Assembly (NCBI GenBank): GCA_021083345.1
Contig: JAJGRE010000001.1
Span: 124,001 to 188,000, forward strand
DNA: 64,000 bases
From: Calditrichales bacterium MX18-03
GTDB lineage: Bacteria; Bacillota; Clostridia; Lutisporales; Lutisporaceae
Direction: 5' to 3'
Part shown: piece by piece, positions 22,333 through 31,779 of the stretch
Numbering within the stretch: the first letter of the stretch is position 1
How the letters are laid out: each line of letters starts with the position of its first letter
Notes under the pieces: model-generated
The model's database searches: none
Seen by the model: only the letters and a program-made list of their open reading frames with translations
What the model was told of the DNA's origin: nothing
Made by a program: the position numbers and the translations under genes

Positions 22333-23352
22333 ATGCGGCTTCACGGCAGGATAAAAGTCGGAGAGAGGACAAAAATTCTGGTTCGTCGGTTAGTCCGGGA
22401 CGACATTGCCGTCATCCGGCATGACGATATTGATGAGCTGGCTGCGGCATCGTTGATTGAAACGGGGATCAAGGCCATTATCAATACAGGCAGCAGCATG
22501 ACAGGCCGTTTTTTTTCGCGTGGAACTGAGATGCTGCTGAAGAGCCACATTGGCGTTTTTGACACAAAGCTTCGTCTGGATTACTTTTCTGATGGAGATG
22601 CTGTAACCATATACCACCAGGATCTGATTCTTAACCGAACGCTATACAAAGCTAGCTGCATCCCTGTGGATGCAGGCTATATCCGGAGCAGGACCGAGTT
22701 GTCGCAAAACCTGTACCAGAGCACGCTTTCTGGTTTTGTGGAGAACACACTGCAATATGCCGGAAGGGACAGAGAAAAGCTGATTTGCTTTGACCAATAC
22801 CCAAGGCTGAGCACACCCATAAAAGGAAAGCACGTACTGATCGTAGTCAGAAACCACGATACAATATCCGAGATGAACGCACTGATACATTATATCGACC
22901 GTTTCAAGCCAGTTCTAATGGGTGTGGACGGAGGAGCCGACATCATTCTGCAGCTGGGTCATTCACCGGACATTATCATAGGCGATATGGACAGTGTAAC
23001 AGATCTGGGAATTTACAAAAGCAGAGAACTCTTGCTGCATGCTTACGAAGACGGCTTTTGTCCTTGCCTGGACAGGGTCAGCAAGCTGTGCATTCCCTAC
23101 AAGGTTGTCGCCATGCCGGGAACCAGCGAGGATGTTGCCCTGCTGCTGGCCTATCATCATGAGGCTGAACTGATCGTTCTGGCCGGTGGACATAACTGTC
23201 CTCGGGATTTTCTGAGCAAGGGCCGTCAGGGTATGGGAAGCACACTGCTGGCCAGGCTGATTGTAGGAGACCGACTGGTGGATTGCAGGGGGCTAAGCCG
23301 TATTTCGGCATTTTATGAGCCGGAAAGGGAAAGATTATGTCTGCAAGTATAA
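22333..23352 (+). CDS. steA: SteA-like putative cytokinetic ring protein
   Basis: A 339-residue protein of the SteA family, with a thiamin-pyrophosphokinase-like core: GVDGGADIILQLGHSPDIIIGDMDS at about residues 197-221 (quoted only to locate it in two halves, GVDGGADIIL and IIIGDMDS). SteA partners with SteB in coryneform cell separation; in Clostridia its role is untested. It lacks the C-terminal membrane helix pair seen in some members. It overlaps the next gene by 16 bases. Confidence 0.85.
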   Translation: MRLHGRIKVGERTKILVRRLVRDDIAVIRHDDIDELAAASLIETGIKAIINTGSSMTGRFFSRGTEMLLKSHIGVFDTKLRLDYFSDGDAVTIYHQDLILNRTLYKASCIPVDAGYIRSRTELSQNLYQSTLSGFVENTLQYAGRDREKLICFDQYPRLSTPIKGKHVLIVVRNHDTISEMNALIHYIDRFKPVLMGVDGGADIILQLGHSPDIIIGDMDSVTDLGIYKSRELLLHAYEDGFCPCLDRVSKLCIPYKVVAMPGTSEDVALLLAYHHEAELIVLAGGHNCPRDFLSKGRQGMGSTLLARLIVGDRLVDCRGLSRISAFYEPERERLCLQV

Positions 23353-24060: not shown

Positions 24061-24933
24061 ATGCATATTTTTTTTATTGCTATGCTATTAGTAGTCGTTT
24101 GCCTTATTGACAGCATATTTATCCGCTATTTCATCAAGATGCTTTACAGCTCCGGCCTGCAAGCATGCTTTGCCAGCAATTATCATGGCAAGCGCATCCC
24201 CTGCATCGGCGGCGCCGTTTTTCTCCCTCTGCTGCTGGTTTCTCTGGTACTTTTTGAAGCCTATTTTCCCGAAAGCCTGCATTCCTTTCTCGAGTTCACC
24301 TTTCTGGCTGCGGTCATCGGATTCACAGGCATTTTGGATGATCTGGCGGGGAACGAGCAAGTCAAAGGCATTCTGCAGCACCTTCGGAGCACAGTGGAAG
24401 GCGACCTGACGACCGGCTTTCTAAAGGCTTTCATGACAGGGCTGGCTGCATTGCTTGTCAGCCTCAGCATGTCACGGTCTCTTCCGGATATGCTGCTCAA
24501 TCTGTTCTTATTGCTGCTTTTTACTAATCTGCTGAATTTGCTGGACTTGAGGCCGGGTCGGGCTATCAAATCCTTTTTCGTTTTCTTTCTGCCCTTGATA
24601 TATCTGATCGTCTTTCATGGTATGCTCACTTTCCTGCCGCTGATCAGTATGCTCCTGATCAGTCTCTTGTACCTTCGTTACGACTTGAGGGAAGTCTGCA
24701 TGCTGGGGGATTCAGGCTCAAACCTGCTTGGTGTATCTCTGGGTTATTATTATGCACTATGGGCTCCAATACCCTTGAAGGCTGTTTTGCTTGTTTTTCT
24801 CATCAGCATCCATATCGTTTCTGAAAGAATATCTCTGTCGGCCATTTTTGAAAGATCCAGCCTGCTGTCCTATTTTGATAATCTTGGAAGGAGTGCTGCA
24901 GCAGATGATGAATACCAGCCGCGCCGTTGTTAA
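24061..24933 (+). CDS. MraY/WecA-like glycosyl-1-phosphate transferase family protein
   Basis: A 290-residue polytopic membrane protein of glycosyltransferase family 4. It keeps FTGILDDLAG (catalytic aspartate pair), NLLNLLDLRPG and MLGDSGSNLLG, typical of enzymes moving a sugar-phosphate onto undecaprenyl phosphate. AGGAGGTCAGC precedes the ATG. Its end overlaps the next gene by 29 bases. Confidence 0.86.
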   Translation: MHIFFIAMLLVVVCLIDSIFIRYFIKMLYSSGLQACFASNYHGKRIPCIGGAVFLPLLLVSLVLFEAYFPESLHSFLEFTFLAAVIGFTGILDDLAGNEQVKGILQHLRSTVEGDLTTGFLKAFMTGLAALLVSLSMSRSLPDMLLNLFLLLLFTNLLNLLDLRPGRAIKSFFVFFLPLIYLIVFHGMLTFLPLISMLLISLLYLRYDLREVCMLGDSGSNLLGVSLGYYYALWAPIPLKAVLLVFLISIHIVSERISLSAIFERSSLLSYFDNLGRSAAADDEYQPRRC

Positions 24934-25969
24934 TCGTATTATTTCCAGAGAGGAAGGCCTGACAAGGTTCCATGCTGATCTGAACGGCAGCAGCGTGCCT
25001 TGCATCAATTATGATTATCTGACGGGTGAAGTCCGGGAAGGGGACCATCTGATCGTCAATACAACAGCCATGGACCTGAAACTGGGTTCCGGCGGTTTTC
25101 ATTTTGTGGTAGCCAACCTGTTCAATCCCGGTCAACCCAAAGGGGCAGAGGGGCATATCATGAAGCTGCGCTATACACCCATGCAAATGAACTGCTTGTG
25201 TTCAGAAGCACCGGAGAGTCCTTTTCATGAAATTTTCAACCGGTTTGAGTCCCTGAACGGCATGAAAGTGGTCATTGGCACACTGCACAGCATGCTAGCG
25301 CCCGTCGTGCTATGCATTCATGCTTTATTCCCGTATGCCAAGATTGCCTATATCATGACAGACGGAGGCGCACTTCCCATGTGGCTCAGCAACAACGTCC
25401 GAAAGCTGAAAAAGGATAAGCTTATCTGCAGCGCCATTACATATGGAAATGCTTTCGGCGGTGATCTGGAGTGCATCAATATTTATACGGCGTTGATCGC
25501 GGCCAAGGAAATTGCCGGTGCGGATATTGCCGTCATCACAATGGGACCAGGCATTGCCGGGACTGCCACCCCTTATGGCTTCAGCGGTGCGGAGCAAGGA
25601 TACTTGATCGATGCCGTCAACCAGCTTGGCGGCTTTCCTATTGCCATACCGAGGCTTTCCTTTTCCGATGTCCGGGACCGTCACAGGGGCATCAGCCACC
25701 AGAGCCTGACGGTACTGGGGAGACTCTGCAGCACAAAAGCCAACGTCGCTATTCCGGTCCTGGACTGCAATGAGAATGAGTATATCCTGTATCAGATCCG
25801 ACAGCATGGCTTGGATCTGAAGCACCTTATCACATACAGGGAAACAGCTGAAGTTGATTCGGTATTATCGAACAAGACGGCGTATCTGGATAAAATGGGC
25901 AGGGGGTATGAGGCAGACAGAGCCTATTTCCTGGCCTGCGGTGTTTCAGCCTTACTCTATGATAGTTAG
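24905..25969 (+). CDS. DUF3866-like protein
   Basis: A 354-residue protein that fits the DUF3866 family, found beside nudF and spoIIM in Clostridia; no function is known. Visible stretches are GGFHFVVANLFNPG, MTDGGALPMWLS, ITMGPGIAGTATPYGFSG and the late DRHRGISHQSL. It contains Rossmann-like glycine motifs but no clear catalytic set. ATG chosen after AAGGAGTGC inside the upstream gene. It ends 4 bases into the convergent small gene. Confidence 0.85.
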   Translation: MMNTSRAVVNRIISREEGLTRFHADLNGSSVPCINYDYLTGEVREGDHLIVNTTAMDLKLGSGGFHFVVANLFNPGQPKGAEGHIMKLRYTPMQMNCLCSEAPESPFHEIFNRFESLNGMKVVIGTLHSMLAPVVLCIHALFPYAKIAYIMTDGGALPMWLSNNVRKLKKDKLICSAITYGNAFGGDLECINIYTALIAAKEIAGADIAVITMGPGIAGTATPYGFSGAEQGYLIDAVNQLGGFPIAIPRLSFSDVRDRHRGISHQSLTVLGRLCSTKANVAIPVLDCNENEYILYQIRQHGLDLKHLITYRETAEVDSVLSNKTAYLDKMGRGYEADRAYFLACGVSALLYDS

Positions 25970-26103
25970 CACAGTTTCTTACGCTCTAGCTCCAGGTACA
26001 TCCTCAGTGTCATGGATTTATCCTTGATCTGTGAAAGCTGCAAGATCAAATCAGAAAACTTGCCTATAAAATGAAAACCGGTTTTTTCGATGACGCGTAC
26101 CAT
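25966..26103 (-). CDS. 45-residue MciZ-like small protein
   Basis: A short minus-strand gene. The product begins MVRVIEKTGFHFIGKFSD and continues with an amphipathic helix ending in LRMYLELERKKLC. An AAAGGGGTG ribosome binding site lies upstream of the ATG. Size, the G-x(4)-GK motif and the following helix resemble MciZ, the B. subtilis peptide that caps FtsZ in the mother cell; as I recall, mciZ also sits next to nudF there. A near-consensus sigma-E promoter lies upstream. Assignment is by eye only. Confidence 0.6.
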   Translation of the reverse strand: MVRVIEKTGFHFIGKFSDLILQLSQIKDKSMTLRMYLELERKKLC

Positions 26104-26167
26104 CTGCAACACCCCTTTCCTGCACTTGTACTATAAATTTGCCAAAGCTTTACTATTCCATTACAAT

Positions 26168-26195
26168 ATTATATGTAGCAGGGGATATAATATTC
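26168..26195 (-). promoter_or_regulatory. Sigma-E promoter of the MciZ-like gene
   Basis: On the minus strand: GAATATT, 13 bases, CATATAAT. This fits KMATATT fully and CATACAMT in 7 of 8 positions. The leader to the ATG at 26103 would be about 58 bases. The same segment on the + strand contains TATAAT, which may serve nudF. Confidence 0.65.
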
Positions 26196-26271
26196 CGGCT
26201 TGTACAAATAGGGCCCTTGTCCGGCCTTTTTACCGTTCAACCCGCTAGAATATGTGATAGGAGCTGGCAGC

Positions 26272-26805
26272 ATGAATATGAACGAAAAAACAGTCAAAAA
26301 GACGAATATCTACTCCGGCAGCATTATCAAACTGGATCTCCATGAGGTGGTGCTGCAAAATGACCGTCCGGCCTCAAGGGAGATTATCACGCACCCGGGT
26401 GGCGTTGCCGTTATCCCGGTATCAGAGAATCGTACGGTCAGTTTCGTAAAGCAATTCCGAAAACCCTATGATACCGAAATACTGGAAATCCCGGCCGGCA
26501 AGCTGGAAAGGGGTGAGGATCCTGAAGCTTGCGCCCGCAGGGAGCTGAAGGAAGAAACCGGTCTGACAGCCTGCTCCATTCAGTTCCTGACACAGATGTA
26601 TCCATCCCCCGGCTATACGGATGAAGTCGTTCATATTTATCTGGGTACCGGTCTGACCGAAGGAGATACCAGCCGGGATGAGGATGAATTCATGGAGGTT
26701 TGCCGGTATACCCTGGATGAAGCCTTAGAAATGGCGCTGAGCGGGCAAATCAGAGACGCAAAGACGCTGATTGCCGTTCTGATGGCGAAGCAGCTCCTGG
26801 GCTAA
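26272..26805 (+). CDS. nudF: NUDIX hydrolase, ADP-ribose pyrophosphatase type
   Basis: A 177-residue NUDIX enzyme hydrolysing ADP-ribose to AMP and ribose 5-phosphate. The Nudix box GKLERGEDPEACARRELKEE (about residues 77-96) is complete. The loop TQMYPSPGYTDEVVH is typical of the ADP-ribose class. ATG at 26272 is chosen because AGGAG lies 8 bases upstream. Confidence 0.92.
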   Translation: MNMNEKTVKKTNIYSGSIIKLDLHEVVLQNDRPASREIITHPGGVAVIPVSENRTVSFVKQFRKPYDTEILEIPAGKLERGEDPEACARRELKEETGLTACSIQFLTQMYPSPGYTDEVVHIYLGTGLTEGDTSRDEDEFMEVCRYTLDEALEMALSGQIRDAKTLIAVLMAKQLLG

Positions 26806-26816
26806 CCCATTTTCTA

Positions 26817-26845
26817 TCATATTGAACAGACCTTCTGCATATTAT
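26817..26845 (+). promoter_or_regulatory. Sigma-E promoter of spoIIM
   Basis: TCATATT, 14 bases, CATATTAT. The -35 fits KMATATT fully and the -10 keeps CATA and the final AT. spoIIM is sigma-E dependent in B. subtilis. Confidence 0.65.
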
Positions 26846-26903: not shown

Positions 26904-27536
26904 ATGTTGAATAATTTGAATGACATCGCAAGAAGGCATCTGGCACAAAACCTCTGGGTATATACCATTATTCTATTCATGTTCATTGTGGGTGTCAGCC
27001 TTGGCGCCCTGACCGTCAATACGTTAGATGACGCCACGCGGGAAGACGCCAAGACCTATATCGAAGGTTTTCTCAACATAGCGGCCAATAATGAAATCAG
27101 CCAATCCAGCATACTGAGACAATCCATCAAGTTCAACCTGTATTTTTCCGTGCTGGTTCTTTTCAGCGGCCTATTCTATCTGGGCGTCGTACTGGTACCA
27201 GTACTTGCCGCCTTCAGAGGCTATTGCATCGGCTTTACCGTTGCCTTTCTGACCCAAAGCATGGGCAGCAACGGCTTTTACCTTGCATTGGCGTCGGTAC
27301 TACCCCAAAATCTCATCTACGTACCGGTCATCATCATCCTCTGCGCCTGTGCCCTTAACCAGGCTTTTTCGATTTTCAGGAACAAGTATTTCCGGAAATA
27401 CAGCGGTATACCTGGTCAGATATCCGCATATATCATTTCCATTGCCATCCTCTTTGTTCTTTTTGTGGCCGGAAGCATTGTGGAGTCATATATCACATCC
27501 ACCGTCATCAAGTTGATCACACCCTACCTGATTTAA
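26904..27536 (+). CDS. spoIIM: Stage II sporulation protein M
   Basis: A 210-residue polytopic membrane protein of the SpoIID-SpoIIM-SpoIIP machine that thins septal peptidoglycan and drives engulfment. It has about five hydrophobic segments and the motifs GVSLGALTVN and VPVLAAFRGYCIGFTVAFL. GAAGGGAGTG precedes the ATG. Confidence 0.95.
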   Translation: MLNNLNDIARRHLAQNLWVYTIILFMFIVGVSLGALTVNTLDDATREDAKTYIEGFLNIAANNEISQSSILRQSIKFNLYFSVLVLFSGLFYLGVVLVPVLAAFRGYCIGFTVAFLTQSMGSNGFYLALASVLPQNLIYVPVIIILCACALNQAFSIFRNKYFRKYSGIPGQISAYIISIAILFVLFVAGSIVESYITSTVIKLITPYLI

Positions 27537-30095: not shown

Positions 30096-30920
30096 ATGGA
30101 AAATAATCTGATGAAAAAAATAGACGAAGCAAGGGCTTATCTTGCAGATAAGCTGGGTTACACGCCGGAGATCGGCCTAATCCTCGGTTCCGGCCTGGGA
30201 GAATTGGGAGAAGAGGTAGAGGACAAGGTCTATATCAGTTACGGAGATATTCCTAACTTTCCGGTTTCCACAGTAGAGGGGCACAAAGGCCGCTTCGTTT
30301 TCGGCACCCTGATGGGCCGGAAGGTAGCGGTCATGCAAGGCCGCTTCCATTTCTACGAAGGCTATAAGATGCAGGAGGTTGTCTTTCCGATCTGGGTCAT
30401 GAAAGCTCTTGGAATCGGCAAGCTGATCGTCACCAATGCAGCAGGGGGAATCAATACGGGTTTTGTACCGGGGGACCTGATGATCATTAAGGATCATATC
30501 AACTACACAAACCTGAATCCGCTGATCGGTCCCAACAATGAAGCTTTCGGCCCCAGATTCCCCGACATGTCCGCTGCTTATTCCAGGGAGATGATCCAGA
30601 TCATCAAGGATAGTGCCGCTGCTCTAGAGCTGAAGCTTCAGGAAGGCGTATATGTCCTGTTGACCGGACCCAGCTATGAGACCCCCGCCGAAATAAAGGC
30701 GCTTCGCATATTGGGAGCAGATGCCGTGGGTATGTCCACTGTACCGGAAGTGGTAACAGCCAATCACTGCGGTATGGCAGTAGCTGGCATATCCTGCATT
30801 ACCAATATGGCTGCCGGTATACTGGATCAGCCGCTTGATCACAATGAGGTCATGGAAACAGCCGAGAAAGTCAAGGTACGGTTCTCCAGCCTGATCAAGA
30901 CTGTTGTCGGCAGACTATAA
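30096..30920 (+). CDS. punA: Purine nucleoside phosphorylase I
   Basis: Cleaves purine nucleosides with phosphate to base and (deoxy)ribose 1-phosphate. 274 residues, trimeric PNP class. Motifs: LGSGLGEL (phosphate), VEGHKGRFVFG, MQGRFHFYEGY, TNAAGGIN, and VGMSTVPEVVTANHCG with the base-contact region. AAAGGAGC precedes the ATG. Confidence 0.96.
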   Translation: MENNLMKKIDEARAYLADKLGYTPEIGLILGSGLGELGEEVEDKVYISYGDIPNFPVSTVEGHKGRFVFGTLMGRKVAVMQGRFHFYEGYKMQEVVFPIWVMKALGIGKLIVTNAAGGINTGFVPGDLMIIKDHINYTNLNPLIGPNNEAFGPRFPDMSAAYSREMIQIIKDSAAALELKLQEGVYVLLTGPSYETPAEIKALRILGADAVGMSTVPEVVTANHCGMAVAGISCITNMAAGILDQPLDHNEVMETAEKVKVRFSSLIKTVVGRL

Positions 30921-30939
30921 TAGGGCAGGAGGTAAGGAA

Positions 30940-31779
30940 ATGGATCAGACAAACCGATTGCGGGAAAGGATATCAGCCGCAACACATTACATAGAAAGCA
31001 AAATCGACTTCAAACCGGAGATCGGCATTATACTGGGCACCGGCCTGGGTTCTCTGGCAGATTTTATCGAAGACCCTGTGACCATCGATTATACCGACAT
31101 CCCCGAGTTTCCTGTCTCAACTGTTTTCGGCCATGCCGGCAGGCTGCTGCTGGGTACGCTGGAGGGCAGGAAAGTCGTTGCCATGCAAGGCCGCTTCCAT
31201 TACTATGAAGGTTATTCCATGCAGGAAATCACCATTCCGGTCAGGGTCATGAAGCAACTGGGCATCAAGCTGCTGGTTGCCAGCAATGCCTGCGGCGGTC
31301 TGAACCCGTCTTTTAAAGCGGGTGACATCATGATCATAACGGACCACATGAACTTCATGGGTTCCAATCCGCTGCTGGGTCCCAACCTGAATGAGTTCGG
31401 TCCCAGGTTCCCCGACATGTCGGAGATATACGACAAATCACTGGTCAGGCAGCTGGAATTGGCTGCACAAACCCTGGGGATACACGTTCAGAAAGGGGTC
31501 TACAGTGCCGTCAGCGGTCCCAACTATGCCACCAAGGCCGAGCTCGGCATGTTGATCCGCCTGGGTTCCGATACCATAGGAATGTCCACTGTCCCCGAAG
31601 CCATCGTGGCGAAGCACTGCGGCTTAAAGGTAGCCGGCGTTTCCTGCATCACGGATATGGCGATTCCGGACAGCATGACCGCCCCCAGCCATGAGGAGAT
31701 CGTTAAAGTAGCCGAATCGGTGAAGCCGAATTTCGTCAAGCTGGTCAAGGAATTTGTCAAAGAGGTGTTGCTGTCATGA
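30940..31779 (+). CDS. Second purine nucleoside phosphorylase
   Basis: A 279-residue tandem paralogue of the preceding gene. It keeps [32 protein letters not shown] and [16 protein letters not shown], but has SNACGGLN in place of TNAAGGIN and ITDMAIPDS where the first copy has ITNMAAGIL. These base-pocket differences suggest a different purine preference. CAGGAGGTAAGG sets the ATG at 30940; it overlaps pdp by 4 bases. Confidence 0.94.

Follow-up and report, generated by a model that had tools for sequence, protein, structure and literature searches.

The small gene considered here lies on the minus strand of the window (the whole 64-kb stretch of DNA that was analysed), between a DUF3866 gene, with which it is convergent, and a nudF-like gene, from which it is divergent. 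The initial annotation had placed nudF, spoIIM and a SteA-like division gene in its vicinity, and all three were confirmed by HMM searches. The features of the locus are as follows.

22333-23352, plus strand: steA, putative cytokinetic ring protein (NF040608, 327 bits; cut-off 150)
24791-25969, plus strand: DUF3866 gene, convergent neighbour (PF12982, E = 3e-123); its stop codon and the TAA of the small gene overlap
25966-26103, minus strand: MciZ-like small gene of 45 codons, start ATG at 26103, stop TAA at 25966-25968
26112-26120, minus strand: ribosome binding site GGAAAGGGG, 8 nt 5' of the small-gene ATG
26139-26167, plus strand: putative sigma-70-type promoter of nudF, TTGCCA-17-TACAAT, recognised by consensus only (a single match against a chance expectation of 1.4)
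26168-26175, minus strand: -10 element CATATAAT of the putative sigma-E-type promoter of the small gene, spacer 13
26189-26195, minus strand: -35 element GAATATT of the same putative promoter
26254-26805, plus strand: nudF-like NUDIX hydrolase gene, divergent neighbour (PF00293, E = 2.5e-21); likely true start ATG at 26272
26817-26845, plus strand: sigma-E-type promoter of spoIIM, TCATATTG-N13-CATATTAT
26904-27536, plus strand: spoIIM (TIGR02831, 149 bits; cut-off 100)

Further along the window, XerD-, DeoB- and PNP-like genes were annotated from their sequences. Two adjacent purine nucleoside phosphorylase-like paralogues occupy 30096-31779 on the plus strand; in the longest reading of the second, the two share 17 bases.

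The frame at 25966-26103 is a real, previously unannotated protein gene, whose 45-residue product is MVRVIEKTGFHFIGKFSDLILQLSQIKDKSMTLRMYLELERKKLC. A protein search of 61 relatives recovered in-frame copies, full-length or nearly so, from the genomes of 16 further members of its GTDB family; these share 29-53% identity, all have the same start, and most carry a purine-rich ribosome binding site at an equal distance from it. In the 17-member family set made up of these relatives and the window copy, the other two sense frames (+1 and +2) contain stops in every copy (17/17), and the antisense frames contain stops in 14-15 of 17. Pairwise dN/dS is about 0.04-0.15, as calculated only for pairs with unsaturated dS. 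The complete minus-strand gene with ribosome binding site that had been read from the sequence is thus present as claimed, down to its ATG, TAA and GGAAAGGGG, and the suggested check of small-ORF conservation found the frame kept in all 17 family members, with a substitution pattern of purifying selection. Five family genomes gave no match; since the flanking DUF3866 gene is likewise missing in all five, this absence is uninformative. The very short length of the ORF and its lack of annotation would fit a chance frame, or a non-coding transcript under a sigma-E-like promoter, but the low dN/dS, the frame conserved together with ribosome binding sites and the stops in the other sense frames led us to reject such a reading, to which we assign next to no probability.

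Promoters between the small gene and nudF

The promoter of the small gene has the form that sigma-E promoters take in its own genome. The GAATATT-N13-CATATAAT match reported earlier has exactly the sequence and spacing described, and its geometry is that of the spoIVA promoter of the same genome, TAATAATA-N12-CATATAAT. With a two-block matrix trained solely on family spoIVA and spoIIIAA promoters, the site ranks second of all positions in the window. The highest score goes to the promoter just 5' of spoIIM, a gene for which sigma-E control is expected independently and which serves as an internal positive control; in third place comes the spoIIIAA promoter, which had been among the training sites for that scan. 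When the sites of the own genome were left out of training, the small-gene promoter scored 14.8, and no site in 12 shuffled windows scored as high. In most family copies CATATAAT or CATATA lies about 40 nt 5' of the start and is preceded, at a spacing of 20 or 21, by a -35-like block; three copies (L008, L010 and L016) have no convincing sigma-E-type site upstream of the small gene. In the own genome, ftsZ, spoIIGA, sigE and sigG are consecutive. The fourth-ranked window site, TAATCTTT-N12-CATAAAAT at 23337 on the minus strand, faces no obvious minus-strand gene.

The sigma-A-like -10 element of nudF abuts the small-gene -10 element on the opposite strand (26139-26175), and in many relatives the bases that follow CATATAAT give TGnTAnAAT when read along the strand of nudF. 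Because the two -10 elements abut in this way, the nudF and small-gene promoters may be mutually exclusive.

Relationship to MciZ and distribution of the gene

Taken alone, the window peptide had no PF13072 match by Pfam hmmscan, and a search of the own genome gave none at its position; the cut-off serves detection and does not define the family. Nor did the peptide find a match in the Pfam/NCBIfam scan or, by phmmer, in the PDB; against a strict MciZ HMM it scored E = 0.41, within the decoy scores. The case for homology to MciZ therefore rests on its relatives. The profile of the window family matched a set composed of B. subtilis MciZ and the over-cut-off PF13072 MciZ sequences with a probability of 97.2 (E = 3.9e-11), and the profile-profile comparisons overall gave probabilities of 97.2-97.6 and E-values of about 4e-11 to 1e-12, ungapped over 40 columns; the best of 200 column-shuffled control profiles reached E = 0.004. 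Against the strict MciZ HMM, 15/17 family members scored above all 5,100 decoys. The clostridial PF13072 matches by themselves put B. subtilis MciZ first among 5,001 (E = 7.4e-11). A profile of 27 clostridial relatives did not retrieve MciZ from the PDB sequences.

The MciZ HMM and the HMM of the window family were each run over the 8,950 small frames of 80 named DUF3866 loci. Independently of one another they found essentially the same antisense ORFs adjoining DUF3866, and neither gave a match below E = 0.1 away from this slot. The slot ORF of Geosporobacter ferrireducens matches both profiles and so bridges the two families. These comparisons support the small gene as a divergent MciZ homologue at the family level. 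The proposed identification through PF13072 thus holds for the family profile (97%, with 15/17 members above the decoys) and fails for the lone peptide, while the MciZ-like size and GK motif, earlier matched by eye, are borne out by the ungapped profile alignment, which puts Gly14-Lys15 in register.

PF13072 members scoring over the cut-off were found in several clostridial families in a phylum-wide search, most of them in the same place: convergent with DUF3866 and divergent from nudF/spoIIM where these were detected. The small gene sits in this slot of the Pfam-recognised clostridial MciZ genes. If a small sporulation protein without kinship to MciZ had arisen at this intergenic position and merely resembled MciZ, that would account for the missing PF13072 match of the window peptide and for its identity of only about 13% to B. 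subtilis MciZ, but we regard this as very improbable in view of the ungapped 40-column profile match far beyond the shuffled controls, of intermediates such as Geosporobacter that match both profiles, and of a locus and orientation identical to those of clostridial MciZ genes.

The slot is occupied in the window relatives, Geosporobacter and Syntrophomonadaceae. Where the gene is present and nudF was detected, the gap between DUF3866 and nudF is about 180-390 nt; in loci without the gene (most Peptostreptococcaceae, Tissierella) it is usually 9-62 nt. Six loci (L168, L169, L175, L177, L180 and L187) have gaps of about 140-290 nt with no MciZ-like ORF detected, L177 giving a weak match at E = 0.11, and such larger gaps may hide more divergent MciZ copies or remnants. 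In the Peptostreptococcaceae loci L128-L186, which include Clostridioides, there is no MciZ-like gene and no spoIIM match between DUF3866/nudF and xerD, which suggests that the two genes were lost jointly.

With a combined profile that is not expected to be complete, the gene was found in 109/398 genomes of the phylum (E <= 0.003). Nearly all of its occurrences are in genomes that also carry the spore gene spoIVA, which is present in 108/109 gene-positive genomes vs 231/289 gene-negative ones; conversely, only 1/59 of the spoIVA-negative genomes has the gene. The Fisher p-value for this co-occurrence is 5e-8, uncorrected for phylogeny, and is based on species counts, which are not independent events.

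Predicted fold and proposed role in the mother cell

The initial annotation had expected a single helix. The AlphaFold2 monomer model instead predicts a beta-hairpin followed by two helices (E2-6, E9-13, H16-24 and H33-44; pLDDT 87, pTM 0.53). Foldseek found no PDB match for this very small, 45-residue model, and a VIA search with it likewise gave none. When bound to FtsZ, MciZ extends that protein's C-terminal sheet by a beta-hairpin and caps its filaments (PMC4929429; PMC7430163; PMC11938149), and the hairpin and helices predicted for the window peptide agree with the published FtsZ-bound hairpin (PMC4929429). The FtsZ of the own genome is strongly similar to B. subtilis FtsZ along the globular domain, including the 4U39 chain. 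By homology, the window peptide would be expected to bind and inhibit FtsZ.

At the position of Arg20 in B. subtilis MciZ, a residue that we take to be critical for FtsZ binding, the window peptide has Ile, and several over-cut-off PF13072 members have Val, Leu or Gln. This replacement, the divergence of the window sequence and the proximity of steA and spoIIM would be in keeping with a MciZ homologue whose target has changed, that is, a sigma-E-driven mother-cell peptide that binds some other protein of division or sporulation, such as SteA or an engulfment factor, rather than FtsZ. We consider a changed target improbable, however, as the hairpin/helix pattern of FtsZ binding is predicted to be retained, including the invariant Gly14 and near-invariant Lys15, and the own FtsZ is so similar to that of B. 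subtilis.

Most probably, then, the gene is a divergent clostridial mciZ orthologue, driven by sigma-E in the mother cell, whose product caps or sequesters FtsZ; we infer the binding, the capping and the timing. Once asymmetric septation is done, sigma-E in the mother cell would transcribe the small gene from GAATATT-N13-CATATAAT. The 45-residue peptide would fold on FtsZ as a beta-hairpin with helices and add to the sheet in the C-terminal subdomain of FtsZ, at the polymerisation face, and FtsZ so capped or sequestered would form no further Z-ring in the mother cell.

There is perhaps an even chance that mother-cell shutdown of the MciZ type goes back to the ancestor of endospore formers and is no Bacillus speciality. 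On this view it would be kept at a single locus in Clostridia, where the sigma-E promoter and the nudF promoter stand back to back; it would have been lost, for example, in Peptostreptococcaceae, and in the window clade Ile in place of Arg20 would alter the contact with FtsZ. A conserved sigma-E-driven clostridial branch, if true, would make active shutdown of mother-cell division a general and ancient step of sporulation. The slot, occupied in some lineages and closed in others, offers a natural presence/absence comparison, and the divergent natural peptides would be new FtsZ inhibitors to study.

Comparison with known MciZ proteins

In the open-access literature we found no report of MciZ outside Bacillus. 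Some clostridial members are already recognised by Pfam, and on the profile evidence the window gene belongs to the family as a divergent clostridial representative. B. subtilis MciZ is a 40-residue, sigma-E-controlled FtsZ inhibitor (PDB 2MRW and 4U39) that halts division of the mother cell in sporulation, and its gene presumably adjoins nudF, as the window gene does; a search with it against plasmids and phages for Bacillus synteny gave no match. The window peptide resembles it in size, in the ungapped profile alignment with its Gly14-Lys15 register, in the sigma-E-type promoter and the context of mother-cell sporulation, and in the hairpin and helices predicted here. It differs in its low identity, in Ile for Arg20 and in a C-terminal tail about 5 residues longer, and its neighbour DUF3866 was not detected in B. 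subtilis in a control search. With clostridial PF13072 members (for example L025-L034) it shares slot, length and motif, whereas the window clade falls below Pfam detection; this clade has an Ile-rich helix 1 (sDLI) and a linker of the form I-x-x-K-x-[IM]-[TS]-L, unlike the Tyr/Thr-rich linker of the clostridial PF13072 members.
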